From the NCBI RefSeq assembly GCF_014873535.1, contig NZ_JADBEF010000001.1:6014001-6078000 (forward strand): a stretch of DNA of 64,000 nt, written 5' to 3'. The notes under the pieces were generated by a model that made no database searches, had not been told where the DNA came from, and saw only the letters and a list, made by a program, of their open reading frames with translations. Positions 1-55,241 of this stretch are shown one piece after another (position 1 is the first letter of the stretch; each line of letters begins with the position of its first letter). Source of the DNA: Nonomuraea africana (lineage in GTDB: Bacteria > Actinomycetota > Actinomycetes > Streptosporangiales > Streptosporangiaceae). Both the position numbers and the translations under genes were made by a program.

Positions 1-1
1 C

Positions 2-895
2 TTCACGGAGGGCGGGGACGCGCTGGTGACCGAGCGCGACAGCGCGAGGCTGCTGCGCGTGACGGCGGCGGGGAAGGTCACCCCGCTGGGAGAGATCGAA
101 GGCGTGGAACCGGACGGCGAGGGCGGCCTGATGGGGGTGGCCGCCCGAGGCGACCAGGTCTTCCTCTACTACACCGCCGCCTCGGACAACAGGATCGTCC
201 GCTACCGGCTGGCCGGTGACACGCTCTCGGACCGGAAGGTGATCGTCAAGGGCATCCCCAAGGGCGGCATCCACAACGGAGGCAGACTCGCCTTCGGCCC
301 CGACGGCTTCCTCTACGCCAGCACCGGCGAGACCGGCGACCAGGCCCTCGCCCAGGACCGCGACTCGCTCGCGGGCAAGATCCTGAGGATGACCGCCGAC
401 GGCGCGCCCGCGCCGGGCAACCCGTTCGGCACCCTGGTCCACAGCTACGGCCACCGCAACGTGCAGGGCCTGGCGTGGGACTCCTCGGGTCGGCTGTACG
501 CCTCGGAGTTCGGCGCCAACTCCTTCGACGAGGTCAACCTGATCGAGGCGGGCGGCAACTACGGCTGGCCCGAGGTCGAGGGCGTCGGCGACGATCCCGA
601 CTACGTCAACCCGATCGTCACCTGGGACACCTCGGAGGCCTCCCCCTCGGGCATGGCCTACGCGGAGGGCTCGCTGTGGGTGGGCGCGCTGCGCGGGGAG
701 CGGTTGTGGCAGGTGCCGCTGGACGGGGCCGGCTCGGCCGGCCGGCCGGTCGACCATCTGCGCGACGCCCACGGCAGGCTCCGCGCCGTCACCCTCGCCC
801 CCGACGGCACCCTGTGGATCGGCACGAGCAACAAGGACGGCAGGGGCGACCCCCGTCAGGGCGACGACCGGATCATGTCGGTGCCCGTGGGCTGA
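2..895 (+). CDS. PQQ-dependent sugar dehydrogenase (glucose/sorbosone dehydrogenase family), 5'-truncated
   Basis: The reading frame is already open at the first bases of the window (codons from base 2 read FTEGGDALVTERD), so the true start lies outside. The visible 297 codons are the body of a six-bladed GSDH propeller. Recognisable pieces are the GGLMGVA segment, the HNGGRLAFGPDGFLYASTGE segment that supplies active-site and calcium/PQQ contacts in the family, and YGHRNVQGLAWD. Members are usually exported and oxidise aldose sugars; the signal peptide would lie in the missing part. The TGA stop is immediately followed, with no spacer, by the stop of the convergent VanW gene. Substrate cannot be told from sequence. 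Confidence 0.85.
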   Translation, partial: FTEGGDALVTERDSARLLRVTAAGKVTPLGEIEGVEPDGEGGLMGVAARGDQVFLYYTAASDNRIVRYRLAGDTLSDRKVIVKGIPKGGIHNGGRLAFGPDGFLYASTGETGDQALAQDRDSLAGKILRMTADGAPAPGNPFGTLVHSYGHRNVQGLAWDSSGRLYASEFGANSFDEVNLIEAGGNYGWPEVEGVGDDPDYVNPIVTWDTSEASPSGMAYAEGSLWVGALRGERLWQVPLDGAGSAGRPVDHLRDAHGRLRAVTLAPDGTLWIGTSNKDGRGDPRQGDDRIMSVPVG

Positions 896-38868: not shown

Positions 38869-39822
38869 CTACTTGCGCTTGCTGATCTCGTCCGCGAGCT
38901 GCGGGACGACCTGGTGCAGGTCGCCCACGACACCGAAGTCGGCGAGCTCGAAGATCGGCGCCTCCGGGTCCTTGTTGATCGCGACGATGGTCTTGGCCGT
39001 CTGCATGCCCGCCCGGTGCTGGATCGCACCCGAGATGCCGGCGGCGATGTAGAGCTGCGGCGAGACCGTCTTGCCCGTCTGGCCGACCTGGAACTGGTGC
39101 GGGTACCAGCCCGCGTCCGTGGCCGCGCGGGAGGCGCCCACAGCGGCGCCCAGGACGTCGGCGAGCCCCTCGATGATCGAGAAGTTCTCCGCCGATCCCA
39201 CGCCACGGCCACCGGAGACGACGATGGCCGCCTCGGTGAGCTCGGGACGGGCGCCCTTCTCCTGCTTGACCCGCTCGACGATCTTCGAGGCCTTGGCGGC
39301 GTCCGACAGCGCGACCGAGACCTCCTCCTCGGTCCCCGCGGCCGGCGAAGGAGCGGGAGCGGTGGAGTTGGGGCGGACCGCGATGATCGGGGTGCCCTTG
39401 GTCACGCGCGAGTGGACGTTGACGCCGCCACCGAAGATGGACTGGTCGGCGACGAAGCCCTCGCTCAGGCCGACCGCGTCGGTGATGACACCGGAGTCGG
39501 TCTTGACGGCCAGGCGACCGGCGATCTCCTTGCCCTCCGCCGTGGCGGCGACGAGGACGGCCGCGGGCGCGGCCGAGCCGACCAGCTGCGCCAGCAGTTC
39601 GGCCTTGGGGGCGACGACGTGGTCGACGACGTCGGCGGAGCCCGCGACGTAGACCTTCTCCGCGCCGTACTCGGCCAGCCTGGCCTTGGCGTCGGCGGTG
39701 AAGCCGGGGCCTGCCCACACGGCCGAGGGGGTGCCGAGCGAGCGGGCCAGGGTCAGCAGCTCGAGCGTGACCTTCTTGACCTCGCCGTCGACCTGCTCAA
39801 CGAGAACGAGAATCTCCGACAT
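38869..39822 (-). CDS. etfA: Electron transfer flavoprotein, alpha subunit
   Basis: 317 residues. The N-terminal domain (about 1-185) is Rossmann-like. The C-terminal FAD domain (about 190-317) contains [45 protein letters not shown] and [22 protein letters not shown], the FAD-binding signature. With the beta subunit it passes electrons from acyl-CoA dehydrogenases to ETF-quinone oxidoreductase. It begins 21 bp after the etfB stop, so etfB-etfA form one transcript. Confidence 0.97.
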
Positions 39823-39843
39823 ATCAGCTGTTCTCTCCCGTAC

Positions 39844-40623
39844 TCAGATGAACTTCTTGGACGCGAGGAAGTCGGCGGCCTTGACGCCGCCATCGCCCTC
39901 GTCCTTGACGATCGTGCCCGCCGCGCGCGGAGGGGCCGCGGCGAAGTCGACGACCTCGGACCAGGCCGCACCGAGGCCGACCTGCGACGCGTCGATCTCG
40001 GCGTCCGCCACGCCCATCGTCGCGACCGGCTTCTTCTTGGCCGCCATGATGCCCTTGAAGGAGGGGTAACGCGGCTCGTTGATCTTCTCGACCACGGAGA
40101 CGACGGCGGGCAGCGTGGCCTCGACCTTGTCGTAGCCGTAGTCGGTCAGGCGCTGGATGGAGATCGAGGAACCGTCGATGTCCACCTTGTTGGCCAGCGT
40201 GAGCTGCGCGGCGCCCAGGCGCTCGGCCAGCATCGCGGCCAGCACGCCGGTCCGCGCGTCGGTCGACTCCGAACCGAGGATGACCAGGTCGAAACCGATC
40301 TTCTTCAGCGTCTGGGCCATCGCGTAGGAGGTCGAGAGCGCGTCCGAGCCGTGCAGGGCGTCGTCGGTCAGGTGGACCGCCTTGTCCGCGCCCATGGCCA
40401 GGGCCTTGCGGATGGTCTCGGTGGCCTTGCCGGGGCCCATGGTGAGGACGGTCACTTCACCGCCGTGGGCCTCCTTGAGCTTCAGGGCCTCCTCGACCGC
40501 GTACTCGTCAAGCTCGTTGACGACGCCGTCGGCGGCGTCGCGGTCGAGCGTCTTGTCATCGGACCGGAGCTTGCGCTCGGTCGCCGTGTCGGGGACCTGC
40601 TTCACGCAGACGACGATGTTCAT
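39844..40623 (-). CDS. etfB: Electron transfer flavoprotein, beta subunit
   Basis: 259 residues from the ATG at 40623 (MNIVVCVKQVPDTA), with GGAGG about 13 bases upstream; in-frame codons further out are not coding-like. Features: NELDEYAVEEALKLKEA, GADKAVHLTDDALHGSDALSTSYAMA, and the ETF-beta signature LVILGSESTDARTGVLAAMLAERLG with AMP-binding residues. Forms a heterodimer with the alpha subunit. A promoter with an overlapping palindrome lies about 100 bases upstream. Confidence 0.97.
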   Translation of the reverse strand: MNIVVCVKQVPDTATERKLRSDDKTLDRDAADGVVNELDEYAVEEALKLKEAHGGEVTVLTMGPGKATETIRKALAMGADKAVHLTDDALHGSDALSTSYAMAQTLKKIGFDLVILGSESTDARTGVLAAMLAERLGAAQLTLANKVDIDGSSISIQRLTDYGYDKVEATLPAVVSVVEKINEPRYPSFKGIMAAKKKPVATMGVADAEIDASQVGLGAAWSEVVDFAAAPPRAAGTIVKDEGDGGVKAADFLASKKFI

Positions 40624-40716
40624 GGCCGGTGGCCGACCTCCCGTAATCGCATGCTCGGATGAGTGCTGTCCAGACTGCCAGACTGCCCAGGGCCCCACTC
40701 CACGGCCCCTTGGGTC

Positions 40717-40817: not shown

Positions 40818-42200
40818 TCAGGCGTTGAGCAGGAAGACCACTCCCACGACCAGCGCAGTGCCGGCGAAGAGCGCCAGCGTGAACGGGCTGAAGAGGGTGC
40901 TGAGCACCAGCCACAGCGCCACCACCCCGGCCACCGACGACAGGTCGGTCACCATGCGGCGGATCCTGAACAGGCCGCGCGAGAGCAGCGCGACCGCCGC
41001 GTCGCCGACCACGATCAGAGAGTAGGACGCGAGCAGCAGCAGCGACGCCTCGGGCAGCGGTGTCCTGGCCGCCGCCGCCAGCAGGGCGACGAAGATGCCC
41101 GAGCCGATCACCCACCGCCTGCGGATCTTCTCCCTGTGGCGGGCGCGCGCCTCGTCCGTCGTGGGCCGCCCGGGCCGCCACTCCCTCGTGGACAGGTCGT
41201 GCAGGTCGGCATGGCCCTGAGTGGGCTCCACCCGCCGGCCCCCGGCGAAGACGCCGCCCAGCCCACCGGAAGGGCCGCCCGCCTCGAGGAACGCCCCCGG
41301 CTCGGGCCCCAGGGCGCCGGGGAAGGGCTCCGGTCCCGCCGGGCCCGCCGCTCCCATGGCGCTCGGCGTGGGGCGCCGGGCCGTACCGCTCAGGCCTCTG
41401 ACGCCGTGGCGCCCGCGGGAAGGCGTGTCGACGCCGAGCCTGGCGCAGATCTGCGCGGCCGTCGGCCGCGCGGCGGGGTCACGCAGCAGGCATTCGCGCA
41501 GCAGCGGCTCCAGCCAGGCGGGCACCCCCTCGAGATCGGGCTCGTGATGGACGACCCGGTAGGCGATGGCCGACAGCGGGCCCGTGCCGTACGGCTGGCG
41601 CCCCGTGGCCGCGTAGGCCAGCGTGGCGGCGAAGGAGAACACGTCGGCCGGAGCGCCGGTCTCCTGCCCTTCGAGCACCTCGGGCGCCAGGTAACCGGGC
41701 GTGCCGACCACCGCGCCCGAGGCGGTGACAGACAGCGAGTCGAGCGCCGAGGCGATGCCGAAGTCGATCACCACGGGCTCGCCCTCGGCCATCATGACGT
41801 TGGCGGGCTTGAGGTCCCTGTGCACCACGCCCGCGTCGTGGATGGCCGTCAGCGCCTGCGCCAGCCCCTTGGCCAGGCGGCGCAGATCCGTCACGGGCAC
41901 CGGCACGACGCTGAGCGGCCGCCCCTGGACGTAGCGGGTCACGAGGTAGGGCCGCTCGCCCGACATCGAGGCGTCGAGCACCTCGGCCACGTACGGCCCC
42001 TCCACCAGGCGCATCGTCTCGACCTCGCGCTCGAGCCTGGTCAGGGCGGAGGCGTCGGCGGCGACGTGCGGGTGCAGGACCTTGACCGCGACGGTGCGGC
42101 CCTCGGGGTCGAGCGCGAGGTGGACCTCGCCGAACCCGCCCGAACCGAGCGGGGAGAGAAGGCGGTAGGGGCCGAGATGCTCACCGTCAGGCTCGCTCAT
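40818..42200 (-). CDS. Membrane Ser/Thr protein kinase (first of three)
   Basis: 460 residues from the ATG at 42200 with GGAG 4-7 bases upstream. Kinase domain about 8-270: Gly loop LGSGGFGEVHLA, VAIK-type Lys in TVAVKVL, catalytic HRDLKPANVM, DFGIASALD, and GTPGYLAPEVLEG. A Gly/Pro-rich linker of about 90 residues follows, then three or four C-terminal membrane helices (about 375-460, RRWVIGSGIFVALLA onward), with no large extracellular domain. This helix cluster, rather than PASTA repeats, is shared by all three kinases here. Substrate unknown. Confidence 0.92.
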   Translation of the reverse strand: MSEPDGEHLGPYRLLSPLGSGGFGEVHLALDPEGRTVAVKVLHPHVAADASALTRLEREVETMRLVEGPYVAEVLDASMSGERPYLVTRYVQGRPLSVVPVPVTDLRRLAKGLAQALTAIHDAGVVHRDLKPANVMMAEGEPVVIDFGIASALDSLSVTASGAVVGTPGYLAPEVLEGQETGAPADVFSFAATLAYAATGRQPYGTGPLSAIAYRVVHHEPDLEGVPAWLEPLLRECLLRDPAARPTAAQICARLGVDTPSRGRHGVRGLSGTARRPTPSAMGAAGPAGPEPFPGALGPEPGAFLEAGGPSGGLGGVFAGGRRVEPTQGHADLHDLSTREWRPGRPTTDEARARHREKIRRRWVIGSGIFVALLAAAARTPLPEASLLLLASYSLIVVGDAAVALLSRGLFRIRRMVTDLSSVAGVVALWLVLSTLFSPFTLALFAGTALVVGVVFLLNA

Positions 42201-42237
42201 GTCTCCATAGTGCCCCGCGGAGGGGCCGGAGACCACG

Positions 42238-44064
42238 TCATGACCAGGGTGAGAGGAAGCCGAGTCCGAGGCTCGTCATGAGGGAGTCGATGAGCCCCGT
42301 GATGAGTCCGGTCACGCTGTCCTTCGCGGTGCGGGTCAGCTCCCTCACCACGTCGGAGGGCTGCTCCCACGGATGCCAGGTAGGCGCCTGCCCCATCGCG
42401 AACAGCACAGCGAGCAGCGCGGCGGTGCCGACGACCAGCGCGACCACGAGCCCTGCCCCTGGACTGCGGATGACGCCGGTCAGCGTGCGGGTGACGGCCT
42501 TGCGCGGCGCTCCCCCTCCGGGCAGCACGAACAGCCCCGCCGCGAAGGCACCGGCCGCGTAGGCCACCGCCTGGTCGCTGTGGATCTGCAGGGCGTAGTG
42601 CAGCACGCCCCACACGCACACGCCCCACAGGATCGACAGCGGGACCTGCACCAGCGACACCAGAGTCGCCTTGATCAGCGCCCATGGCGTGCCGAGCAGG
42701 ATCAGCGCGGGATCGGCCGCGCTGCTGCCCCGCAACTGGCGGCGCGAGACGAGGTCACCGAAGAGGTACTCGCCCACGCGCAGCACCAGCGCGATCACCA
42801 CGGCCGCGGCGCCGGCCATGACCGGCATCATGACCGCGAGCGCGACCAGCAACGTCAGCAGCAGCGCCGCGATGAGCGGATGCCCCACGCGGTACCTCGG
42901 CCGATCGGCCTGCGGCGGCGTGTAAGGCCGCGGCTGGACGGCGGGCTGGGGCGGCCTGACCGCCGCCCGCTGCTGCTGCGGCGAAGGCGCGGGGTAGCCC
43001 GCGACCCGCTGGTCGGGGTACGGCGGTGGCGGCTGGTACGGCGGCACGTTCGCCGGCACGTACGGCGGCGGCTTCGGCTCCTTGCGCTGCCTGTGCTCCT
43101 TGCGGGGCTGCGGCTCGGGGCGCGGCGGCTTGGCGTACTCGACCGGCGGCAGCAGGTCGGAGAAGCTGTCGTCGGAGACGAGCGTCCTGGTCCTGCCGAC
43201 CGGCGGCGACTCCAGGACCCGCGTGCCGTTCGGCGGCGTCTCGTTGAAGGCCGTCACCGAGGGGTCGAGCGCGCGCGCCATGCGCAGCAGTTCCTGCGCG
43301 GTGGGCCTGGCCTTGGGGTCGACCGCCAGCGCCCTGCTCAGCCAGCCGCGCAGCCACGCGGGCGCCTTGTCGAGCTGCGCCCGCCCCTCCATGATGTTGA
43401 AGCAGATGACCTCGAACGTGCCCGTGCCGAACGGCGGCGCGCCCACCGCGGCGAAGAAGACCGTGGAGGCCAGCGCGTGCACGTCGGCCGCCTGGGTGAT
43501 CTCCGTGTCGCGGATGATCTCAGGCGCGAGGTAGCCGGGCGTGCCGACGAACATGCCCGTCTGGGTCAGCCTGGTGGCGTTGACCAGGTGCGCGATGCCG
43601 AAGTCGATGACCAGGGGCTCGCCGTCGACCAGCATGACGTTGGACGGCTTGAAGTCGCGGTGGATGACGTCGGCGGCGTGGATGGAGACGAGCGCGGCGC
43701 ACAGTCCCTGTGCCAGCCTGATCAGCTGCGCCGCGGGCAGCGGCCCCTCGGCGAGCACCGTCTCCTCGAGCGTGCGCCCGGGGGCGAATCTCGTCACCAC
43801 GTACGGCTGCCCGCCGACCAGCTCGGCGTCGAGCACCTCGGCGACGTGCCGGCTGCGCACCCTGCGCATGGTCTCGACCTCGCGGGTCAGCCGGTCGCGC
43901 GCCTTCAGGTCCGCCGCGACGTGGGGGTGCAGCACCTTGATGGCGACCTCGCGCCCCTCCTCGTCGAGCCCGAGGTGGACAACCCCCATGCCACCCTCGC
44001 CGATCTTCCTGACGAGCCTGTAGGGACCGAGACGCTCGGGCGCCTGGGTGTTGCCAGTGCTCAT
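42238..44064 (-). CDS. Membrane Ser/Thr protein kinase (second of three)
   Basis: 608 residues. Kinase domain about 12-270: IGEGGMGVVHLG, VAIKVLHPHV, and HRDFKPSNVM, where Phe replaces the usual Leu of HRDLKP (common and active in many kinases). Also DFGIAHLVN and GTPGYLAPEI. A Pro/Gln-rich linker (about 300-395, with repeated PPPYP motifs) follows, then a membrane region of five or so helices (about 400-560) and an amphipathic tail ending SLGLGFLSPWS. Four bases separate it from the stop of the larger kinase upstream, and 37 from the next. Confidence 0.92.
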   Translation of the reverse strand: MSTGNTQAPERLGPYRLVRKIGEGGMGVVHLGLDEEGREVAIKVLHPHVAADLKARDRLTREVETMRRVRSRHVAEVLDAELVGGQPYVVTRFAPGRTLEETVLAEGPLPAAQLIRLAQGLCAALVSIHAADVIHRDFKPSNVMLVDGEPLVIDFGIAHLVNATRLTQTGMFVGTPGYLAPEIIRDTEITQAADVHALASTVFFAAVGAPPFGTGTFEVICFNIMEGRAQLDKAPAWLRGWLSRALAVDPKARPTAQELLRMARALDPSVTAFNETPPNGTRVLESPPVGRTRTLVSDDSFSDLLPPVEYAKPPRPEPQPRKEHRQRKEPKPPPYVPANVPPYQPPPPYPDQRVAGYPAPSPQQQRAAVRPPQPAVQPRPYTPPQADRPRYRVGHPLIAALLLTLLVALAVMMPVMAGAAAVVIALVLRVGEYLFGDLVSRRQLRGSSAADPALILLGTPWALIKATLVSLVQVPLSILWGVCVWGVLHYALQIHSDQAVAYAAGAFAAGLFVLPGGGAPRKAVTRTLTGVIRSPGAGLVVALVVGTAALLAVLFAMGQAPTWHPWEQPSDVVRELTRTAKDSVTGLITGLIDSLMTSLGLGFLSPWS

Positions 44065-44068
44065 CTAC

Positions 44069-46486
44069 TCATCCCCCTCCTTGGCCCGCCTTCCCCCGCA
44101 GCTCCATCAGCTGGTCCGTGAGCCAACTCACCTCGACGGGCGCCCATACCGACTTCCTACCCAATTCGGGCACCGTGCCGAACGCCAGGACCAGCGAGAG
44201 CGCGGCGCCGACGGCGAGCACGCCGGCGGTCACCATGGCCACCGTACGCGACGGAACCAGTGAGGCGAGCGTCCTGCGCATCTGCCGCCCGGGGGCCTCG
44301 ACCCCGGGACCGGCGCAGACCGTCCACAGCGCGACCGCTCCACCCCAGGCCAGCGCGTTGGCCAGCGGCATCGAATGGACCAGCACGGTGAGCAGCAGGG
44401 TGACGGGCAGACCGAGGATCAGCGCGTACGGCACCAGCGCGGCCGTGATGCCGATCGACTTCAGCAGCGCGGCGGGCTGGGCGAACACGCGGACCACGTC
44501 CGCCGCCGCCGAACCCGTCGAGCGCCTGGCGTTGAGCTGCGGCTGGGCCAGGTCGGCGGCGCGCAGCAGCACGGCGAACGGGATCGCCACCGCGCTCACC
44601 ACCAGCGGGGCGAGCACGGCCAGCACGATCATGATGACGAGCAGCATGGCGCCCGCCACGCCGTACGCCTTGGAGCGCTGCAACGCGAGGCCGGGCGGCG
44701 CGCCGGGAATGCGCGGCTCGCGCCAGGTCTCGGGGTCGTGCCCCGAGACGTTCGCCTGCGGGTACTGCTGGCCGTAGGGCGGCTGGGCGCCACGAGGGTA
44801 GTCGGGCGCTTCGGGGCGCACCCTGCGGGTCGGGATGTCACCGTCACGCTGGTACGGCCGCGCCTGCGGCGGCACGCCCTGGTAACCGCCGGCCGGCCCG
44901 CCCTGAGCGGGGAAGCCCTGCGAAGGGCCGCCCTGGGCCGGGAATCCACCCGAGGGGCCGCCTTGGCCAGGGTGGCCACCCGAAGGGCCTTGGGCCGGGC
45001 GGCTACCGGAAGGCCCGCTCTGAGCAGGAGGGCCACTCTGCGGGCCGCCCTGCGCGGGGAAACCACCCGCCGAGGGGAAGCCGCCGGACGGACTCGGCGC
45101 ACCCGGAGGGGCGTGCGGCGCGCTGTGGTTGCCCTGGTTACCCGGCCACGGGCGGCTCGAGGGTGGTTCGGGAGCGGCCTTGGTCGGCGCGTCCCACGGG
45201 TGCGCGGGCACGCCGCCCTCCTCGCGCATCTGCCGCAGCTCCTCGGGCGTCACACGCCTGGTCGGCCACGGGTCGCCCCCGGTCGTCGAGTGCTCGCCCG
45301 CCTGCCCCTGACCCGCGGGAGCGGGACCGCCCGAAGCGGGACCGGCCGCGCCATGGCCGCCCGTGGCGGGACCTCCAGGACCCTGACCACCGGTGCCGGG
45401 ACCCGCCGTGCCCTGACCACCGGTGCCCTGCCCCCCTGTGGCGGGGCCTGCCTGGCCGTGGCCGCCGGTCGCTGGGGGCTGGTTGCCGAGCAGGGAGACG
45501 AACTCCTGGCTGCCGGGGGCGGCGGCGCCCGGCACGGGTGCGGCGCCGCCGTACGGCCCAGGGGCGGCCGGCTGCCCGAGCGGCGGGCGAGCGGGCGGGA
45601 TCGCGGGCGTGGGGACGTCGGCGGGGTCGATGACGGGACGCGACCCAGGACGGTCCGGCCTGGGCACCGTGGAGATCTCGTCGGCCACCTTGGCGGGCCC
45701 CGGCAGCAGCCTCGCGGTCTGCTCGGCCAGGTCGGCCGCCTTGGGCCGCTTGGCGGGATTGCGCTGGAAGGCCGCCTTGAGCAGCGGCTGCAGCTCGCGC
45801 GGCGCCGCCGACACCTCGGCCTTGCCCGCGGTGATGTTATAGAAGATCATCTCCAGCGTGCCCTTGCCGAAGGGCGGCTGGCCGGTCGCGGCGTACAGCA
45901 GCGTGCCCGCCCACGCGTGGACGTCGACCTCGGGACCCGCCTCGTGCCCCTCGATGATCTCGGGGGCGAGGTAGCCGGGCGTGCCGATGAACATGCCGGT
46001 CTGGGTCAGCCTGGTCGCGTCGACCGCCTGCGCGATGCCGAAGTCGATCAGGACGGGGTCGCCGTCGAGGATCAGCACGTTGCCGGGCTTGAGGTCGCGG
46101 TGGATCACGCCGACGGAGTGGACGGCGGCCAGCGCCGAGGCCACCCCGTGTGCCACGCGGACCAGCGCGGGCAGCTCCAAGGGACCGTCCTGCTTGACGA
46201 CCTCGTCGAGGGGACGGCCCGGCACGTAACGGGTGACGATGTAGGGACGGTGTCCCGTGACGTCGGCGTCCAGCACCTCGGCGATGTACTTGCTGCGCAC
46301 TCGCCGCATCGTGTCGACCTCGCGCGAGAGCCGCCGCCTGGCGACGTCGTCGCCGGCGACCTCTGCTCGCAGGACCTTGACCGCCACCTGCCGCCCCTGC
46401 GGGTCGACAGCGAGGTGGACAACGCCCATGCCACCTTCACCGAGCCGCCTGAGCAGTCGGTAGGGGCCTAGTCGGTCATCGTTCAT
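44069..46486 (-). CDS. Membrane Ser/Thr protein kinase with long Gly/Gln/Pro-rich linker (third of three)
   Basis: 805 residues from the ATG at 46486; another ATG five codons earlier is possible and neither has a clear RBS. Kinase domain about 5-265: LGEGGMGVVHLA, VAVKVL, HRDLKPGNVL, DFGIAQAVD, GTPGYLAPEII. Residues about 285-590 are low complexity: a GG(Q/P/H)GxG run near 350-400 and a FPAQGGP repeat block near 480-540, likely disordered. The end (about 600-790) has four or more membrane helices. It heads the three-kinase operon. The linker repeats invite length variation between strains. Confidence 0.92.
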   Translation of the reverse strand: MNDDRLGPYRLLRRLGEGGMGVVHLAVDPQGRQVAVKVLRAEVAGDDVARRRLSREVDTMRRVRSKYIAEVLDADVTGHRPYIVTRYVPGRPLDEVVKQDGPLELPALVRVAHGVASALAAVHSVGVIHRDLKPGNVLILDGDPVLIDFGIAQAVDATRLTQTGMFIGTPGYLAPEIIEGHEAGPEVDVHAWAGTLLYAATGQPPFGKGTLEMIFYNITAGKAEVSAAPRELQPLLKAAFQRNPAKRPKAADLAEQTARLLPGPAKVADEISTVPRPDRPGSRPVIDPADVPTPAIPPARPPLGQPAAPGPYGGAAPVPGAAAPGSQEFVSLLGNQPPATGGHGQAGPATGGQGTGGQGTAGPGTGGQGPGGPATGGHGAAGPASGGPAPAGQGQAGEHSTTGGDPWPTRRVTPEELRQMREEGGVPAHPWDAPTKAAPEPPSSRPWPGNQGNHSAPHAPPGAPSPSGGFPSAGGFPAQGGPQSGPPAQSGPSGSRPAQGPSGGHPGQGGPSGGFPAQGGPSQGFPAQGGPAGGYQGVPPQARPYQRDGDIPTRRVRPEAPDYPRGAQPPYGQQYPQANVSGHDPETWREPRIPGAPPGLALQRSKAYGVAGAMLLVIMIVLAVLAPLVVSAVAIPFAVLLRAADLAQPQLNARRSTGSAAADVVRVFAQPAALLKSIGITAALVPYALILGLPVTLLLTVLVHSMPLANALAWGGAVALWTVCAGPGVEAPGRQMRRTLASLVPSRTVAMVTAGVLAVGAALSLVLAFGTVPELGRKSVWAPVEVSWLTDQLMELRGKAGQGGG

Positions 46487-46606
46487 GGCATGCAGCACCA
46501 TACTGGCTCAAACCCCGCCCACGAGATGAACCACGAGGTCACATTCCCACTGGTGTAACGTCCGAAGTGGCCCCATAGGTTTCCAATCAACAGTCTCGCA
46601 TTGGTC

Positions 46607-47122
46607 TCAGTTCGCCAGATCGAGGACCTCCGCGGCCTTCAGTCCGGCCAGAGCGGCCCCCCGCAGGGCGAGCTTCGAGCGCCGCACGCCGCTGCCGATG
46701 ACCACCTCGGGATGCGCCGCCACCCTGCTGTCGACGAGGATCGGCCAGTCGTCGGGCAGGCCGAGCGGAGTGATGCCGCCGTACTCCATGCCCGTGAGCG
46801 AGACCGCGTCGTCCATGGGGGCGAAGCTGATCTTGCGCGCGTCGAGCCGTCTCCTGATCACACCGTTGACGTCGGCCTTCGTCGTGGCGAGCACCATGCA
46901 GGCGGCATAGCGCACCTCGCCGCCGCGCCTGCCCGCCACCACCACGCAGTTGGCCGAGGCGTCGAGCGCCACGCCGTACCGCTCGCAGAAGGCGGCGGTG
47001 TCGGCCAGCTCGGGATCGATCTCGGCCACCCGCACCTCCTCCTCCATCTCACGTACGGCCCGCGCCACCGGTTCGGCGAGCAGGTCGATCCGGTCGAGAG
47101 CCGGAACCCATTGCACGTCCAT
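46607..47122 (-). CDS. YbaK/EbsC-type aminoacyl-tRNA deacylase
   Basis: 171 residues from the ATG at 47122 (MDVQWVPALDRIDLLAEPV). YbaK fold about 30-160 with ASANCVVVAGRR, CMVLATTKADVNGVIRRRLDARKISFA and YGGITPLGLPDDWPILVDS. Relatives clear mischarged Cys- or Ala-tRNA(Pro) or related species; an alternative is a family member acting on a free aminoacyl compound. It starts 10 bases after the amine oxidase stop and is the last gene of the coiled-coil/PP-loop/M55/oxidase operon. This may be operonic chance or a functional link. Confidence 0.85.
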   Translation of the reverse strand: MDVQWVPALDRIDLLAEPVARAVREMEEEVRVAEIDPELADTAAFCERYGVALDASANCVVVAGRRGGEVRYAACMVLATTKADVNGVIRRRLDARKISFAPMDDAVSLTGMEYGGITPLGLPDDWPILVDSRVAAHPEVVIGSGVRRSKLALRGAALAGLKAAEVLDLAN

Positions 47123-47132
47123 GGGCAGGACC

Positions 47133-48686
47133 TTACGCCGAGGCTGTGACACGTCGATGCAGCTGGGTGACCGCGCTCCTGGCGGACTCCATGGCGCCCG
47201 CCTGCCAGGCGACCAGATGGGTGAGCCAGTCGCCCGCGAAGTACACCCTCCCTGACGGACGTTGCAGGAGAGTGAAGGACGAATCAAAGGCCGGCCAGCG
47301 CGCCCAGCCGCCCTGGAGATGGGGCTGGCGCTCCCAGGCGATCGAGACGCTCGACAGCAGCTCCGCGCGGTACTTCTCGCCGTGGATCTTCTTGCCCTGG
47401 GTGAGCGCGCGGCGCCTGCGGTCCTCGGGGGTGAGCGCGCCGTACAGCTCGGCGGACTCGCCCGAGTTGTAGTAGCCGACGAGCAGGCCGCGCTCGGAGT
47501 GGTAGCCGTAGGAGGGGTACCAGATGTGCGTGATGTCGAGGTCGGTCTCGGTGACGCCGCCGTAGATGCGGTCCTCCAGCTCCCACCAGCGCCTGCCGTA
47601 CTCCAGGCCGATCTTGCCGGCGGCGACCGGGACCGGGGTGCGGAGCGCGGCGGTGACGGGGGCGCCCAGGTTGTGCGGGATCCTCGCCAGGACGTGCGGG
47701 GGCAGCGTGGCGACGCAGTAGTCGGCGGTGAGCTCGCCACCCTCCCAGGTGACGGTGACGCCCTGGTCCTGGTCGGTGATCCTGGTGACCTTCGCGCCGG
47801 TCCTGACGCGGTCGCGGCCGACGGCCTCGACCAGCCTCGTGACGATCGCGTCCATGCCGCCGACCGGCTGGAACATCGGGGTGGCCTGGTCGTAGCCGAA
47901 GTCGTTGATGATCGCGCGGCCGACTCCCGCGACGAGCACGTCGTGCAGGCTCGTGGGGCCGGTCAGCGCCGTCCCACCGTCCAGGCCCGGGTACTTCGTG
48001 AAACCGCGGCGCTCCGACCCCTCGTAGGTGAGCTTGGGCCCCAGGTCTCCGAACCTGCGCAGGAACTCCAGGAGGCGCTCCTGGTCGTCGCCCGTGAGCC
48101 TGCGGTCGAGCGCGCGGTGGTTGGTGGCCTTGGCCAGCAGCTCCGCGACGTAGCCGTACATGTCGGCGCGGGCGGTCTTGTTCCGGACCGTCCGGCCCTC
48201 GGTGTGCACGTAGGCGGAGGCGTTGGAGTTGACGAACGTCTCGATGGGGACACCGAGTTCGCGGCAGTAGTCCATCGTCACCATCCACGGCGCGATCCGG
48301 CCGGGACCCGCGTTGAAGTAGACGCCCTCGCCGAAGCGCACGTCCTGGGCGGCCCCGTTGAGCTCGGTGAGCCGGTCGCCGCCGCGCAGGGTGAGATTGC
48401 GCCCGCCGATTCTGTCGCTCGCCTCGAGGAGCGTGCAGTCGTAGCCCGCTTTGCCCAGCTCGTATGCGACGGTCAGGCCCGCGACGCCCGCGCCGAGGAT
48501 GACGACCTTCGCGGCGCCCTTCCCCGTCAGCGTGAAATCGCCCGTCCGCGGTGGGGTGAACGCCTTGTCCTGCTCCGCGGGAGCCAGCCCCAGCGCGCCC
48601 ATCGCCGCGTACATCGCGCCCGCGCCGCCCGCCGCGCCGATGCCGACCAGCAGTCCCCGCCTGGTCAGCGTGCCTCTGTCAGCCAT
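47133..48686 (-). CDS. Flavin amine oxidase / L-amino-acid-oxidase-like, Tat-exported
   Basis: 517 residues from the ATG at 48686, which overlaps the M55 stop by 8 bases. Twin-arginine signal TRRGLLVGIGAAGGAG near 8-23. FAD-binding Rossmann motif VVILGAGVAGLTVAYELGKAG followed by LLEASDRIGGRN. Substrate domain in the middle, and a C-terminal FAD segment RVYFAGDWLTHLVAWQAGAMESARSAV. This is the layout of monoamine and L-amino-acid oxidases, which yield imine, ammonia and peroxide. Export by Tat places it outside, with FAD inserted beforehand. The substrate could be the product of the two upstream enzymes. Confidence 0.9.
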   Translation of the reverse strand: MADRGTLTRRGLLVGIGAAGGAGAMYAAMGALGLAPAEQDKAFTPPRTGDFTLTGKGAAKVVILGAGVAGLTVAYELGKAGYDCTLLEASDRIGGRNLTLRGGDRLTELNGAAQDVRFGEGVYFNAGPGRIAPWMVTMDYCRELGVPIETFVNSNASAYVHTEGRTVRNKTARADMYGYVAELLAKATNHRALDRRLTGDDQERLLEFLRRFGDLGPKLTYEGSERRGFTKYPGLDGGTALTGPTSLHDVLVAGVGRAIINDFGYDQATPMFQPVGGMDAIVTRLVEAVGRDRVRTGAKVTRITDQDQGVTVTWEGGELTADYCVATLPPHVLARIPHNLGAPVTAALRTPVPVAAGKIGLEYGRRWWELEDRIYGGVTETDLDITHIWYPSYGYHSERGLLVGYYNSGESAELYGALTPEDRRRRALTQGKKIHGEKYRAELLSSVSIAWERQPHLQGGWARWPAFDSSFTLLQRPSGRVYFAGDWLTHLVAWQAGAMESARSAVTQLHRRVTASA

Positions 48687-49521
48687 AGGGCCCGCTGCCG
48701 CAGGCCACCTGCCCACCAATGGTCGCGAACAGGCCCATCAGCGCCATGATCTCGGTGAAGTCGTCCGTGGCGAACTCGATCTCCCGAGACCCCGTCTGCT
48801 TCACGCCCGGCACGAGCGCGCAGGCCGCCGCGATCGCCGTGGAGTTCCACTCCACACCCAGCGTGTACGGCCGGCTCGTCTCGTAGGGCGTGAACTCGCT
48901 CAACCTGCCGAGCGCCCGAGCCGCCGCCTCACGAATCGTCGCCTGCGCCACGGACGGCGGCAGCAACTCGGCGGAGAACTTGTCGATGCCCTTCTTGACC
49001 GCGACCGTCTCCACCTCGCCGAGCAGCTCGGCGGCCTCCTCGCCGACCGCCGCGTCCCCCGTGACGAGCGCGACCGGCACGCCGTGGAAGCCCGCGCAGG
49101 CCGCGACCAGCCGCGTCTCCCCGCAGGGCGCCCCGTTCAGGAAGACGTTCTGGATCTCCTTGCCCATCCACGTGTGGTTGAGCACGCCGTGCTGCACGCC
49201 CGCCCTCGCGTGGTAGCCGACGAACATCGCGGCGTCGAACGAGGCGTCGAGCCCCTGCGCCATGCGCTGCGACTTGCCGGGACCGCGGATCAGCGTGGCA
49301 CGGGGGTCGAGCAGGTCGATCCTGAGGTTCTTGGTCGACCCGTGCGCGTCGTTGACCAGCACGCTGGTCGCCCCCGCGGCGAAGGCGCCCTCGATGGCCG
49401 CGTTGGCGTCGGCGGTCATGAGCTCGCAGCCGCGCTCGTAGCCCCGTTTGCCCGCGTGCATCTCCTCCGGGTCGGTCAACCCGGTCACGCCCTCCATGTC
49501 AACGGACAGGTAGACCTTCAC
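48679..49521 (-). CDS. M55 family D-aminopeptidase (DppA-like)
   Basis: 280 residues from a GTG that overlaps the PP-loop stop by 4 bases. Di-zinc ligands line up with Bacillus DppA: Asp8 and Glu10 in SVDMEG, His60 in NDAHGS, His104 in GYHARAG and Glu135 in GET. The conserved LNHTW segment near 114-118 supplies the probable catalytic His. The family cleaves N-terminal D-amino acids from short peptides. No signal peptide. It is flanked by a PP-loop enzyme and an amine oxidase, so the substrate may be a small D-amino-acid-containing metabolite rather than dietary peptide. Confidence 0.92.
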   Translation of the reverse strand: MKVYLSVDMEGVTGLTDPEEMHAGKRGYERGCELMTADANAAIEGAFAAGATSVLVNDAHGSTKNLRIDLLDPRATLIRGPGKSQRMAQGLDASFDAAMFVGYHARAGVQHGVLNHTWMGKEIQNVFLNGAPCGETRLVAACAGFHGVPVALVTGDAAVGEEAAELLGEVETVAVKKGIDKFSAELLPPSVAQATIREAAARALGRLSEFTPYETSRPYTLGVEWNSTAIAAACALVPGVKQTGSREIEFATDDFTEIMALMGLFATIGGQVACGSGPYG

Positions 49522-50729
49522 CCCACGCCACCCCACGTCTCGACTCGCGTTGCCTGTGCCTCGTCCATGAACCCGACGTTCTCCGCCATGAACCGCTCCG
49601 CCCGCTCCCGCCATGGCTCGGGGATCTCCTCGATCGCCGGCCGGTAGCAGCGGTCGAGCCAGCTGGTGGACTCCTCGGTCGCCTTGAGGTACCCGGCCGC
49701 CCTGGCGAACGGCGTGCGCTCGATGCCGGGGACCCTCGCGCAGCCGTACTCGATCATCTCCTGCCCGCCGTACGGCGGAGGCTCCTGCCACTTGCGCGCC
49801 ACGGGACGGTCCGCGGTGATCGGCGTGTCCATCGGACGCCGCTCGACCGCGGCCTGGATGAGCTCCTTGTACAGGCACTTCCCGCACGTGCGGCAGGGTC
49901 CCGAGGTGCCGCGCAGGCACCAGCGCACCTGGGCCTTCAGCGGAGAGTTCAGCGCGATCTTCATGGTCATCGCCTCGCTCACGCCGCCCACGGGCAGCAC
50001 GATCCGCAGACCCGCCGCCGCGAACAGCCGCCCCCACATCCCGTGCGGCGCCCACATCGGGTTGTCGGGGGTGAAGCGGTGCAAATAACGGCCGCCGCCC
50101 AGCCAGCGCGAGCCGATCTCGTACCCGAGACCCACCCCGCCGAGACCCAGCCGGTCGGCGTGCAGCAGCGCCCCGACCATGACCGCGTGGTGCTCGGGAT
50201 AGCCGGGACGCGGCTCGGCCAGCGTGAACTCCAGGTCGGACTCGACCGTGGTCACGTCGCGGCCGGTCCGCGCGGCCAGCTTGGCCAGGACGTCGGAGCG
50301 GTAGTGCGGCCAGCGGTTCGGCACCCTGCTGTGCGGGACCCGCCTGAAGTGCACGAACGGCGCCTCTGGGAAGACCGCCGCGGCGGCCACCGAGTCGGCG
50401 CCGCCGCTGTAGGAGATCGCCAGCGTGGGGCCCGGGGTGCGCGGCGGACCGCCCACGGGACCCGCCTCGACCCCCCAGCCGTCGTGCAGCGCGGCGGCGA
50501 GCTCGTGCGACACGGGACGGTCGAAGGTGATCCTTCTCCTGGTCCAGGGGGCGACGACCGTCCAGGCGGCGACGGCCCAGAGGTCGTTGTGCGCGTCGGA
50601 GGGGATGCCCCGGATCTCGCACGAGTTGACGGCCAGTTTGACGGGGTAGCCGTCGGACACGGTGCCGGTGATCTCGTCCTCGGGGTCGAGCCTGAAGGAG
50701 AGCTCGCCGCCCTTCCACGTCACGCGCAC
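49518..50729 (-). CDS. PP-loop ATPase, QueC/ExsB-like, unknown product
   Basis: 403 residues from a GTG with GAGGAG 5 bases upstream, overlapping the coiled-coil gene by 10 bases. The first 105 residues form a beta-rich domain not found in QueC. The PP-loop SYSGGADSVAAAA lies at about 106-118. Near 280-297, CLRGTSGPCRTCGKC strongly resembles the four-Cys zinc site of QueC. Family chemistry is ATP-dependent adenylation of a carboxylate or amide followed by nitrogen insertion (QueC makes a nitrile from a carboxylate). No other queuosine or 7-deazaguanine genes are visible, so the substrate is probably different. Exact function unknown. Confidence 0.8.
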   Translation of the reverse strand: MRVTWKGGELSFRLDPEDEITGTVSDGYPVKLAVNSCEIRGIPSDAHNDLWAVAAWTVVAPWTRRRITFDRPVSHELAAALHDGWGVEAGPVGGPPRTPGPTLAISYSGGADSVAAAAVFPEAPFVHFRRVPHSRVPNRWPHYRSDVLAKLAARTGRDVTTVESDLEFTLAEPRPGYPEHHAVMVGALLHADRLGLGGVGLGYEIGSRWLGGGRYLHRFTPDNPMWAPHGMWGRLFAAAGLRIVLPVGGVSEAMTMKIALNSPLKAQVRWCLRGTSGPCRTCGKCLYKELIQAAVERRPMDTPITADRPVARKWQEPPPYGGQEMIEYGCARVPGIERTPFARAAGYLKATEESTSWLDRCYRPAIEEIPEPWRERAERFMAENVGFMDEAQATRVETWGGVG

Positions 50730-51166
50730 GACTGCTCCTCGGCGACCGTGGACCCGCTGGGCCGAGATCGGTTCGCGGCTCCGATCCCGCCGTCCCGCGG
50801 CTCGTCCGCGCCCCTGTGTCCGCCCGCCGGCGGTTCCTTCGCGGTTCTGAGTTCGTCGACGGCCTGCCAGAGCAGGACCTCGTTCTGCAGGATCCTGTCG
50901 AGCGCCTGGGCCGTCTCGAACGCCAGCCGGTGCGCCTCGGCGGCCTTCTCCTCCGCCGCCTTGGCCCCGGTCTGCGGAGCCTGCTGCTTGACCGCCCTGA
51001 GCCGCCTGACCTCCTCCTGCAGAGTGGTCACCTCACGGCGCAGCGTCTGGACCTCCCACAGCGCGTCCTTGATGTCCTGCCGGTGGTCGGCGACCGAGAT
51101 GTAACGGGAGTCGAACCACGAACGGACGGCTTTCTTCAGCCGCGCCGGGACCAGGACGCGCATCAT
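50720..51166 (-). CDS. Small coiled-coil protein, unknown function
   Basis: 148 residues from the ATG at 51166; a second ATG follows directly and could be used. A basic start (MRVLVPARLKKAVRSWFDSRYISVADHRQDIK) leads into a long coiled coil (about 35-63, WEVQTLRREVTTLQEEVRRLRAV with heptad leucines). A second helical segment (about 78-107) and a flexible Gly/Asp-rich tail follow. No signal peptide or membrane helix. It is the first gene of the PP-loop/M55/amine-oxidase operon and overlaps it by 10 bases, so it may scaffold that complex; this is inference. The distal frame to 51355 is not coding-like. Confidence 0.75.
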   Translation of the reverse strand: MMRVLVPARLKKAVRSWFDSRYISVADHRQDIKDALWEVQTLRREVTTLQEEVRRLRAVKQQAPQTGAKAAEEKAAEAHRLAFETAQALDRILQNEVLLWQAVDELRTAKEPPAGGHRGADEPRDGGIGAANRSRPSGSTVAEEQSCA

Positions 51167-51374
51167 GAAACGCCACGATAGCGGCAAACCACCTCCCTCT
51201 AGAGCCGCTCTCCGAAGGCCATCTAGCTCTCCCCAGACCAGCTGACCTCGGCGACGACGAGTCGACCGCCCTGGCCCCGCTGGTGGCACGCAAACCGGTC
51301 GGAGCGATCTGCAACACATCGAAGGGCACCGGACACTAACCAAGGTGTCCGGCACCTTTCGGCAAGGAGACTCT

Positions 51375-51887
51375 GTGACACAGCGAGATCGCTTCGAGGC
51401 GGTCTATGACGCGTACTATCCGGCGATACATCAGTACGCCGCACGCCGTACCGACTCCCCCGAGGACACCGCCGACGTCATCTCCGAGACGTTCCTCACC
51501 GCCTGGCGGCGTATCGACCAGGTGCCCGCGGGCGAGCGGGCGCTGCTGTGGCTGTACGGCGTGGCCCGCCGCGTGCTGGCCAACCAGAAACGCGGTGCCT
51601 CACGCAGGGCCGTGCTCGCCGACCGGCTCCGCGACGAGCTGGCCGCCGACCGGCCGGGCACACCGGCCGACCTGGAGTATGTCCGCACGGCCTTCGACGA
51701 GCTACCCGAGAGAGACCGGGAGATCTTGGCACTGGCCTGCTGGGAGAGGCTGACCAGCGAGCAGATCGCCAAGGTTGTGGGATGTACGGCGATCGCCGCC
51801 CGAACCCGCCTGCACCGGGCACGCAAACGGCTGGCGGCAACGCTGGAGCGGCAGCCGTCCTCGACGATCGCGATGGGGGAAGCATGA
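51375..51887 (+). CDS. ECF RNA polymerase sigma factor
   Basis: 170 residues from the GTG at 51375, chosen because AAGGAG stands 5 bases upstream. Region 2 (RFEAVYDAYYPAIHQYAARRTDSPEDTADVISETFLTAWRR) and region 4 (AFDELPERDREILALACWERLTSEQIAKVVGCTAIAARTRLHRARKRL) are both present. The DNA-recognition helix runs through VVGCTAIAARTRL. The following anti-sigma-like gene overlaps by 4 bases. The short dyad aaggtg-tccgg-cacctt lies just upstream of the start and might be regulatory. Confidence 0.92.
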   Translation: MTQRDRFEAVYDAYYPAIHQYAARRTDSPEDTADVISETFLTAWRRIDQVPAGERALLWLYGVARRVLANQKRGASRRAVLADRLRDELAADRPGTPADLEYVRTAFDELPERDREILALACWERLTSEQIAKVVGCTAIAARTRLHRARKRLAATLERQPSSTIAMGEA

Positions 51888-52792
51888 ATGACATCGACCA
51901 CCTGGTAATGGCCATCGACCCCACGCCACACGCGCCGGATCAGGGCCCTGGCGCGCGTGAACTACGCGCGGCGATCATGGCGACCCCGCCTCCGCGCCGC
52001 CGGTTCTCCTGGCTCCCCAGAGGGGGAACCCGTGTACGAGGGCGTGCCCGCTGGCCCATATCGGCCTTGGCGGTCACCGCCCTGGCTGTGGCCGTCGCGA
52101 TCGGCGTCGGCCTGGCGCCCGTCGGTCCGGCCACCCAGTACGCCAATGCGGCCGTCTCCATAAAGAAGGCCGACGACCATTTCAGCGTCACCATCACCGA
52201 CCCCACCGCCGACCATCGGCGCTTCGAGGAGGCGTTTCGCGCGGTAGGGCTGAATGTCAGGGTCAAGGTCGTCCCAGTGGCGCCGAACGCAGTGGGCACG
52301 CTGCTCGGCCCGATCGTCCCTGAGGGCTTCACCCGGCACGGAAGCATAGGAGTGAAGGCCGTGACCCCGTGCGCTTCGGCCTTCTGCGGCAAGGTCTGGA
52401 TGCCCGCGGACTTCCCCGGCCGGGTCGTCTTCGGGGTGGGCCGCCCCGCCGGACCGGGTGAACCCTACGTCGATGACCGTCCCTACGATCCCTCGGGGGA
52501 GGAGGCGCTGGACGGGTACACGGTCCACGGTAAGACGGTCTCGGCTGTGCGCGCCGAACTGCACCGGCGCGGATTGAAGGTCGGCCATCGCCTGCTGTGG
52601 AGCCGGCCTGACGGCGGTTCCTTCGACCAACCCGTTCCCGCGGACCGGATCAAGAACGACTGGATCGTCAACGGCTCCCGCGACCACAGCTCGGACACCG
52701 TAGACCTCTACGTCGTTCCCGGACCTGGGGCCGGCCCCATGCCCGATCCGCTGAAGGTCGCCACTCCCCAGTGGTACGACCTCACCGGCTGA
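51884..52792 (+). CDS. Anti-sigma-like membrane protein (CU044_5270-like)
   Basis: 302 residues, ATG overlapping the sigma stop by 4 bases (ATGA). The cytoplasmic N-terminus (about 1-58, MNDIDHLVMAIDPTPHAPD) is followed by a membrane helix (about 60-82, WPISALAVTALAVAVAIGVGLAP). A mainly soluble extracytoplasmic part follows, with the Cys pair CASAFCGKVWMPADFPG and a GYTVHGKTVSAVRAELHRRGL segment resembling PASTA-type ligand-binding repeats. Typical of proteins paired with ECF sigmas. The gap after the stop contains a second open frame that I rejected. Confidence 0.75.
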   Translation: MNDIDHLVMAIDPTPHAPDQGPGARELRAAIMATPPPRRRFSWLPRGGTRVRGRARWPISALAVTALAVAVAIGVGLAPVGPATQYANAAVSIKKADDHFSVTITDPTADHRRFEEAFRAVGLNVRVKVVPVAPNAVGTLLGPIVPEGFTRHGSIGVKAVTPCASAFCGKVWMPADFPGRVVFGVGRPAGPGEPYVDDRPYDPSGEEALDGYTVHGKTVSAVRAELHRRGLKVGHRLLWSRPDGGSFDQPVPADRIKNDWIVNGSRDHSSDTVDLYVVPGPGAGPMPDPLKVATPQWYDLTG

Positions 52793-54467: not shown

Positions 54468-55241
54468 CTAGCGGCCGGTGAACTTGGGTTTGGCCTTCTC
54501 CGTGAAGGCGTGCATGCCGATCTTGGCGTCGTCCGTGGCGAACAGGCCGGAGAACTGCAGGCGCTCGACCTCCAGCCCCGTGTCCAGGTCCACCTCGAGC
54601 CCCTGGTCGATCGCCTGCTTGGCGGCGCGCAGCGCGACCGTGGGGCCGCCGACGAAGGTGGCGGCCCAGGCCAGGGCTTCGGTGTAGACGTCGGTGTCGG
54701 GCACGACCCGATCGACCAGGCCGAGGCGAAGGGCCTCCTCGGCGGTGACGTGACGGCCGCTGAAGATGAGGTCCTTGGCACGGGCGGGGCCGATCAGGCG
54801 GGGCAGCCGCTGGGTGCCGCCCGCTCCGGGGATGATGCCGAGCTGGATCTCCGGCTGCCCGAGCTTGGCGCTCTCGCCCGCCACCCTGAAGTCCGCGCAG
54901 AGGGCCAGCTCGCAGCCGCCGCCCAGCGCGTAGCCGGTGATCGCGGCGATGACCGGCTTGCCGACGCGGGCCAGCGCGGTGAAGCAGTCCTGAAGGGTTC
55001 GGGAGTGGGCGGCCATGTCCGCGTAGGACATGTCGGCCATTTCCTTGATGTCGGCGCCCGCGGCGAAGACCCGCTCCCCGCCGTACACGACGACCGCGTG
55101 AACGCCCTGGTCGGCGTCCACGGCCCGCGCGCACTCGGCGATCTCGCGCTGGACCTGCCCGTTGAGGGCGTTCATCTTCGGACGATCGAGCCTGATCGTG
55201 GCGATCTGGTCGGACACCTCGACGCGTGCAAACTCACCCAT
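54468..55241 (-). CDS. Enoyl-CoA hydratase/isomerase
   Basis: 257 residues. Crotonase fold with the oxyanion-hole segments [10 protein letters not shown] and [17 protein letters not shown]. Both catalytic Glu positions of true hydratases look present: one in the [11 protein letters not shown] helix and one in [22 protein letters not shown]. It hydrates trans-2-enoyl-CoA in beta-oxidation or a related pathway. The ATG is chosen by conservation. Upstream is the divergent large histidine kinase (82-bp gap); downstream lie the REP-like hairpins. No other fatty-acid gene is adjacent, though etfBA lies 14 kb away. Confidence 0.93.

Follow-up and report, generated by a model that had tools for sequence, protein, structure and literature searches.

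A DUF6395 PP-loop protein of predicted QatC-like build in a mosaic five-gene operon of Streptosporangiaceae

What is the function of a compact operon that joins a coiled-coil protein, a PP-loop protein, a D-aminopeptidase, an amino acid oxidase and a tRNA-editing domain protein, and do its genes serve a single pathway? This question is raised by a locus of Nonomuraea africana, which we analyzed within a window of 64,000 nt (NZ_JADBEF010000001.1, 6,014,001-6,078,000; positions below are counted from the window start). The five genes lie on the minus strand in the order CC (50720-51166), which encodes a 148-residue coiled-coil protein with no Pfam family above cut-off; PP (49518-50729), a PP-loop ATP pyrophosphatase-type protein of 403 residues in the family DUF6395 (PF19932, 1.8e-68); M55 (48679-49521), a DppA-type D-aminopeptidase (PF04951, 2.3e-97) with no signal seen; AO (47133-48686), a Tat-type L-amino-acid oxidase of the Rhodococcus opacus type (2jae, 4.6e-126; Amino_oxidase, 1.2e-45); and YbaK (46607-47122), an aminoacyl-tRNA editing domain protein (PF04073, tRNA_edit, 1.2e-20). 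Successive genes overlap by 10, 4 and 8 bases and are then separated by a gap of 10, exactly as given in the original prediction made from this DNA, which had threaded all five into one linear pathway. Our analysis led to another reading, to which we assign a probability of roughly 0.38, namely that PP may be a tethered, ATP-dependent, amide-forming enzyme that acts on a surface-glycan precursor and is loosely coupled to an exported oxidase. Of our results, the most useful one places PP in an unstudied family of apparently QatC-like enzymes, the divergent members of which are glycan-associated.

PP scored 230.3 bits against the DUF6395 profile, for which the curated cut-off is 25. The Pfam description of this family gives no function, and no paper in the library searched names it. 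Among the papers listed in searches on QueC/QatC, PP-loop amidation, deazaguanylation, M55 with oxidase, and QueC-like glycan genes, none gave an account of this operon. The protein consists of an N-terminal domain (residues 1-107) with an invariant H-x-D-L motif, the sequence SGGADS at 108, a zinc-type cysteine site (C-x7-CxxC-xx-C at 271-285) and a helical C-terminus. Both SGGADS and the cysteine site had been pointed out earlier, together with an N-terminal extension that was put at 105 residues and that we now place at 107. The H-x-D-L motif was found in 44/44 aligned sequences, as well as in 11/11 of the set with the most divergent members.

An AlphaFold2 model of PP, based on the 44 sequences, had a mean pLDDT of 86.6. 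We ran VIA-align over the top chains from Foldseek, and the best match to the model was QatC (9y02_B; Z 11.3, rmsd 4.4, 261 aligned, model 1..333). QueC followed with Z scores of 10.2 (2pg3; rmsd 3.4, 184 aligned) and 9.8 (3bl5; 3.5, 176) and Cap9 with 9.4 (9nto; rmsd 3.2, 164 aligned), while ThiI, YcfA, TilS and other PP-loop enzymes did not exceed 7.7. A QueC-like fold, as originally proposed, was recovered in the model, with QatC ahead of it. Because the three QueC motifs and two of the QatC motifs are absent from all of the 44 DUF6395 sequences, PP is by motif neither QueC nor QatC, but the structural match indicates that it is built like QatC.

Comparison of PP with a QatC profile of eight sequences (L096-L098, L112-L116) gave an E value of 0.0027 and aligned PP residues 42-160 with QatC 48-201, which placed the invariant D49 of PP on an invariant QatC aspartate. 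Judged by its distance of 12 from the following motif aspartate, the latter residue appears to be D63 of E. coli QatC, named as a catalytic residue in passages of PMC13329287. A more diverse DUF6395 set matched QatC at E 0.0024 over a shorter stretch that excludes D49, and set A3 did so at E 0.028. The N-terminal domain alone (pLDDT 88.9) reached a best Z of 5.1, to retroviral integrase cores with an RNase-H-like arrangement, a similarity too weak to use; QatC was absent among the matches listed for this domain.

The protein encoded immediately upstream, CC, has a basic amphipathic N-terminus, a coiled coil and a C-terminal motif, ..LQNEVLLWQAVD.., of which the pattern [WR]QA[VI][DE] was present in 63/63 extracted orthologues (62 loci with PP plus L095; starts in this set were chosen by position). 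In all five fetched loci of the g14/g158 clade, which have no PP, CC ends after ~60 residues and its C-terminal half is gone. CC and PP remain paired where the locus is split between PP and M55 (L052/L118), and a CC-like protein (42% over CC 71-106) lies just upstream of a divergent PP in L090. The basic N-terminus and the coiled coil suggest a tether, and CC is likely a membrane tether and a partner of PP. The C-terminal '-CA' of CC was considered as a lipidation box and was ruled out, as it results from CC overlapping the start codon of PP.

To describe how widely the operon is conserved, we used a genome-contig scan with PP, which reaches close relatives only and yielded 63 named loci. By NCBI taxonomy, 62 of these are from Streptosporangiaceae (Nonomuraea 16, Streptosporangium 10, Sphaerisporangium 8, and others) and the remaining one is from an unplaced actinobacterial metagenome-assembled genome (MAG); the PP match spanned almost the full length in every case. 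All five genes were found in order at 50/63 loci, down to ~65% protein identity (tblastn, E <= 1e-5, in a run that took 68 loci, 63 of them from the PP scan), or at 48/63 by span, without the partial YbaK matches of L048 and L057. Six loci lacked only M55, four lacked only YbaK and one lacked both; L052 retained only CC-PP and L074 only PP. The five-gene arrangement is thus beyond chance, and the compact gene set of the original prediction is borne out as conserved. In genome samples, DUF6395 was found in 16/394 genomes of the class by profile (one below cut-off), in 15/394 with alignment A3 (E <= 1e-6), in 54/150 genomes of the GTDB family with alignment A1 (including two with a C-terminal fragment) and in 2/396 genomes of the phylum, of which the window's own genome is one. 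Viral contigs contained no DUF6395 relative, phages contained none with the L091 protein, the sole query there, and plasmid records contained two. A weak match with in-frame stops (L016/L092) was not used.

The operon is a mosaic of an M55/YbaK backbone, a CC-PP unit and AO, which is loosely tied to PP. Among the 150 family genomes, M55 was present in 72 (E <= 1e-60) and AO in 66 (E <= 1e-100). AO occurred in 49/52 genomes with full-length PP versus 17/98 others, where the PP and AO genome lists are taken as the same draw because the listed handles agree, with negatives listed only in part. Two genomes (G419, G465) retain only the C-terminus of PP and have no AO at E <= 1e-60, and both have kept M55 and YbaK. 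Remnants of the AO tail lie exactly between M55 and YbaK at L094:8510-8563 (E 0.075) and L095:1642-1683 (E 2.7). The five g14/g158 loci (L117, L121, L122, L129, L130) contain CC, M55, AO, YbaK, the kinases and electron transfer flavoprotein (ETF) genes without PP, and the outlier L123 contains enoyl-CoA hydratase, M55, YbaK, kinase and ETF genes without CC, PP or AO. In one genome a break separates PP from M55, so that CC-PP stays with glucan-type genes (L052) and M55-AO-YbaK-kinases lie elsewhere (L118).

These changes were also counted on a kinase/ETF tree of 72 rows, from which L032 was dropped and to which L052 and L074 contributed no kinase rows; the tree does not tell gain from loss. The fewest changes required were five each for PP, AO, M55 and YbaK and four for the long form of CC. 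The count of five for PP includes one artefact, as L118 was scored PP-less though its genome has CC-PP in L052, and it sits among the independent pairs in which AO does not differ. L123 is one of the rows without both PP and AO, and absence there may be the older state. Independent pairs changed in the same way as PP in 4/5 cases for CC, 3/5 for AO and 0/5 for both M55 and YbaK, with p ~0.25 for PP/AO and ~0.125 for PP/CC in a paired test that cannot reach 0.05. AO and CC therefore only tend to change with PP, and not significantly. The five genes are not an obligate pathway; the loss pattern suggests that CC, PP and AO belong tested together and that M55 and YbaK may be bystanders.

A hint at the substrate of PP came from the genes around its distant relatives. 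Five settings of DUF6395 besides the usual locus were considered, the carriers in the set of 54 having been inspected in part. Four independent divergent loci (~25-50% identity to PP) were all surface-polysaccharide clusters, a bare count of 4/4. In L090 (G508), a PP of 50% identity lies beside AftA-like, PMT-like and GT2/GT21-type proteins (one GT2 match being below cut-off), and in L091 (G506) a PP of 27% identity lies between a polysaccharide deacetylase gene and three GT2 genes, two of whose products end, by our reading, in coiled coils. A Priestia megaterium plasmid (NZ_CP109861.1:59289-60605; L136:177-1493) carries a DUF6395 gene of 25% identity with neighbors for GalU, GT-D, a pyruvyl transferase, a galactosyltransferase-related protein, YheC/YheD, a UDP-glucose/GDP-mannose dehydrogenase family protein and a relative of plant IRX15/GXM; further round the circle are genes for a nucleotide sugar dehydrogenase, a glycosyltransferase and spore coat proteins. 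The fourth, G816:C1:1208767-1213626 (L138-L143), has four tandem DUF6395 genes (36-39% for the three aligned) beside an epimerase and a GT2 gene, with GDP-mannose dehydratase ~9 kb and RmlD ~14 kb away. G816 is a 2.2 Mb genome with a large glycan cluster, from the same phylum and another family, and by its label not from the same class; in one of its DUF6395 copies, GGGTDS replaces SGGxDS.

Because its divergent members lie in surface-polysaccharide clusters, the most likely substrate of PP is a surface-glycan precursor. The amino-acid-like carboxylate of the original prediction was not indicated. A uronate, suggested by a neighboring nucleotide-sugar dehydrogenase, was rejected as a more specific candidate, since such a gene was found only in Priestia.

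The neighborhood of the usual locus is itself conserved. Downstream are three tandem Ser/Thr kinase genes (40818-46501), which lie ahead of ETF and share the conservation of the locus: one with a C-terminal extension (44069-46501; Pkinase 7.7e-43; order conserved), a second (42238-44064; Pkinase 9.9e-41) and a third (40818-42236; Pkinase 7.7e-41). The genes for ETF beta (39844-40698) and alpha (38869-39822), together 38869-40698, form the conserved end of the backbone. An enoyl-CoA hydratase gene (54468-55241), which like the kinase and ETF genes is on the minus strand, is in many relatives directly upstream of CC. Upstream clusters among the 63 loci, named by Pfam from L075 and given as minimum counts on account of flank length and gene calling, comprised enoyl-CoA hydratase (at least 44), phosphorylase (at least 34), group-1 glycosyltransferase (at least 25), a glycogen-debranching-type protein (at least 25) and GlgE (at least 23), so that in part of the loci GlgE, phosphorylase, debranching enzyme and group-1 glycosyltransferase genes are found upstream. 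In the window, a sigma-70-family factor gene (ECF-type by our reading) and a downstream open frame (51345-52792) lie between CC and a GNAT gene; the GNAT gene directly adjoins CC in the close relative L017. A promoter and terminator scan was uninformative, with 0 promoter-like sites and five terminator-like sites, none of which was between any two operon genes.

The family assignments made earlier for the last three genes of the operon held up. In M55, residues D8, E10, H60, H104 and E135, which we take to be metal ligands, were present as reported and invariant in 16/16 aligned sequences, as was H116. The arginine pair of the Tat-type N-terminus of AO was invariant in 20/20 aligned sequences, in agreement with the Tat signal proposed before. 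YbaK was borne out by its tRNA_edit match; against NCBIfam TIGR00011 (Cys-tRNA(Pro) deacylase) it scored 41.2 bits and did not reach the cut-off of 153.25. In the alignment of AO with 2jae, R84, Y371 and W426 of the latter, presumably substrate-site residues, correspond to R130, Y406 and W461 of AO, all of which are kept. AO is thus predicted to be an L-amino-acid oxidase of the roLAAO type, and should need a free alpha-amino acid group. Several genomes (e.g. L119, L120) have a second AO paralogue (~800 bits) outside the operon, and its neighbors are not shared between L119 and L120, the two that were inspected.

Taken together, our preferred reading of the locus would run as follows. CC and PP would form a two-gene enzyme unit in which CC holds PP at the membrane. 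PP would activate a carboxylate with ATP, by adenylation and release of pyrophosphate, and form an amide or amide-like bond. In QueC and Cap9, according to passages of PMC13279940, an ATP-activated carboxylate is passed to a nitrogen nucleophile, and by analogy the same chemistry may apply to PP, the partner then being an acid or amine of a glycan precursor. Passages of PMC13060819 on an asparagine-synthetase-like nitrile enzyme were not used as evidence. AO, exported via Tat, would act outside the membrane in functional but loose coupling to PP; as speculation, it could oxidize amino acids released from the envelope or attached to it by their side chains. M55 and YbaK would perform amino-acid housekeeping that is dispensable to the CC-PP unit, within a syntenic backbone (enoyl-CoA hydratase - M55 - YbaK - kinases - ETF) that is also found without CC-PP and AO. 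The content, order and conservation of the genes, their pattern of loss, the resemblance in fold and the surroundings of the family are direct results; the chemistry and substrate of PP, its complex with CC, the export of AO and its coupling to PP are deduced from them.

Several observations weigh against this reading, besides the bare form of the glycan count and the p values given above. On the side of the fold, Foldseek alone returned no PDB match to the PP model at E <= 0.001, and the hhalign probability to QatC was only 11-12%, or 1.7% with the third set. For CC and PP, a single deletion could remove both the 3' half of CC and PP, so that their joint absence need not mean contact, and L095 has a PP fragment yet a full-length CC. 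Coupling to AO is not strict, since three genomes (G016, G161, G423) keep full-length PP without AO and the g14/g158 clade retains AO without PP at the locus. With respect to the substrate, the glycan precursor is a candidate drawn from family context. Nucleotide-sugar dehydrogenase genes were absent from the surroundings of PP in both L090 and L091, which leaves the uronate hint to Priestia alone. The glucan genes of the usual locus are glycogen-type rather than surface-type, and enoyl-CoA hydratase separates them from CC. The fifth DUF6395 setting, a 65% paralogue in Streptosporangiaceae (L074/L093), is without CC, M55, AO and YbaK; nearby are genes for an FAD-binding oxidase-type protein, a hydrolase and a TetR regulator as well as a BTAD-type regulator domain, and no glycan gene was among the five neighbors scanned. 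L074 and L093 have the same gene order and contigs that are both 187,442 long.

The alternative that survives best, although we consider it doubtful, is that the operon reflects mostly shared transcription and vertical inheritance of separate housekeeping genes for a turnover peptidase, a tRNA-editing factor, a secreted oxidase and a glycan enzyme. It would account for the finding that M55, AO, YbaK and PP each underwent ~4 to 5 changes, mostly at different places, and for the separation of PP from M55-AO-YbaK in L052/L118 and G508; it gains weight from the changed setting of the L074 paralogue. It does not readily explain why order was kept in 50/63 loci, or why decay of PP and AO coincides in two genomes, both genes being intact in the rows nearest to them.

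Less probable, and in our view unlikely, is that PP attaches a small molecule to a partner protein at its N-terminus, as Cap9 does and as has been proposed for QatC, in a protein-modifying or defense-like operon. QatC is the best structural match to PP, and a small protein, CC, is encoded directly upstream of PP, just as annotated qatB is upstream of qatC. However, the operon proteins start with MMRV, VRVT, VKVY, MADR and MDVQ, none of them M-G, whereas the MGTS start of QatB is essential according to passages of PMC13279940. An M-G start was also found in 0/63 extracted CC sequences, and CC was accordingly rejected as an N-terminal-glycine substrate. Two QatC-specific motifs are absent from 44/44 sequences, the locus keeps its position beside housekeeping genes in the loci examined, and divergent members lie in glycan clusters. 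PADLOC had no family for CC, PP, M55 or YbaK, its sole match being between AO and a model whose description is that of a desaturase, and an anti-phage role for PP was set aside on this ground.

The linear pathway first proposed, which runs from modification of an amino-acid-like carboxylate by PP through D-peptide trimming by M55 to oxidation of the product outside by AO, with YbaK for proofreading, now appears improbable. The packing of five genes in one direction and their joint presence at 50/63 loci are what it would lead one to expect. Opposed to it are the 0/5 same-way independent pairs for both PP/M55 and PP/YbaK; changes in M55 and in YbaK are independent of those in PP and AO. Where PP is retained next to AO (61 named loci), seven loci are missing M55 and five YbaK; conversely, M55-AO-YbaK are kept without PP in the g14/g158 loci, and M55-YbaK-kinase-ETF are kept without CC, PP and AO in L123. 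The weakest alternative, that a 7-deazaguanine (preQ0-type) compound is the product or the substrate of PP, has the QueC-like fold and Cys4 site of PP in its favor and is very improbable, given that YxQxHxxE, VPxRN and YPDC occur in 0/44 sequences, that the genome has no PF06508 gene and that PTPS/QueD is absent from 6/12 chosen genomes with full-length PP (and present in the other 6/12), which makes a deazaguanine substrate unlikely. The earlier statement that no other queuosine genes are present was correct as to QueC and missed one PTPS/QueD-family gene on the second contig (G000:C2:33182-33667); a queuosine role was ruled out by the motifs and the missing genes, and PP is, as had been predicted, probably an ATP-using PP-loop-type enzyme outside any queuosine pathway.

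More broadly, we tentatively propose that DUF6395 may be a third branch beside QueC and QatC, with QatC architecture, which carries out ATP-dependent amide or nitrogen modification of surface glycans and which in Streptosporangiaceae works with a CC tether and an exported oxidase in building an envelope feature. If so, the anti-phage QatC and a glycan-modifying enzyme would go back to a common ancestor that carried this N-terminal aspartate domain, and the envelope feature built by PP with its CC tether and the exported oxidase would be particular to the Streptosporangiaceae. In any case, these results provide a handle on an unexplained gene set that is widespread in this family and on a Pfam family without a function.

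How does the operon compare with known systems? M55 matches B. subtilis DppA (1hi9) at 1.2e-49 and shares its family and metal site, but it falls below the NCBIfam DppA equivalog cut-off (217 vs 430 bits). The closest solved structure to AO is the Rhodococcus opacus L-amino acid oxidase 2jae (467 residues aligned), from which AO differs by its conserved Tat-type N-terminus. PP shares with QueC (PF06508) the PP-loop core and a zinc-type Cys4 site. Of the QueC signature that pairs SGGxDS with C(x)8CxxCxxC, PP has SGGxDS, and its cysteine site reads C(x)7CxxCxxC. However, PP had no PF06508 match at E <= 1, it has an added N-terminal domain and no tie to a preQ0 pathway, and each of the three QueC motifs cited above, taken from passages of PMC13329287, is missing. 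Cap9 of type IV CBASS has a QueC-like fold but, from the same passages, ~185 residues and the QueC motifs, whereas PP has 403 residues and lacks them. The WbpG-type N-sugar amidotransferases (cluster 5 in those passages) offer a works-like precedent, as QueC-superfamily PP-loop enzymes in a surface glycan pathway; their signature is given there as CxxC(x)6CxC, a difference from C(x)7CxxCxxC of PP that we compared by description only.

The closest comparison is with QatC of qatABCD, which, as described in passages of PMC13279940, resembles PP in its ~400 residues, N-terminal extension, QueC-like core, helical C-terminus, SGGxDS and Cys4 site, and which also has the N-terminal-domain aspartate that aligns with D49. 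The differences are that the QatC motifs ST(R/K)(S/T)xHP and CGxCxxCxxRR occur in 0/44 DUF6395 sequences versus 8/8 QatC controls, that P(x)4TK is absent from PP (the only sequence examined for it), that PP had no NCBIfam match at E <= 1, the QatC family NF041925 being absent from the window's genome, and that QatB, QatA and QatD are not beside PP, which occupies a fixed chromosomal locus and has its divergent relatives in glycan clusters. The same passages of PMC13279940 state that QatC activity could not be reconstituted in vitro. With its QatC architecture, aligned aspartate and sugar-gene context, DUF6395 offers a testable guess at the chemistry of both.

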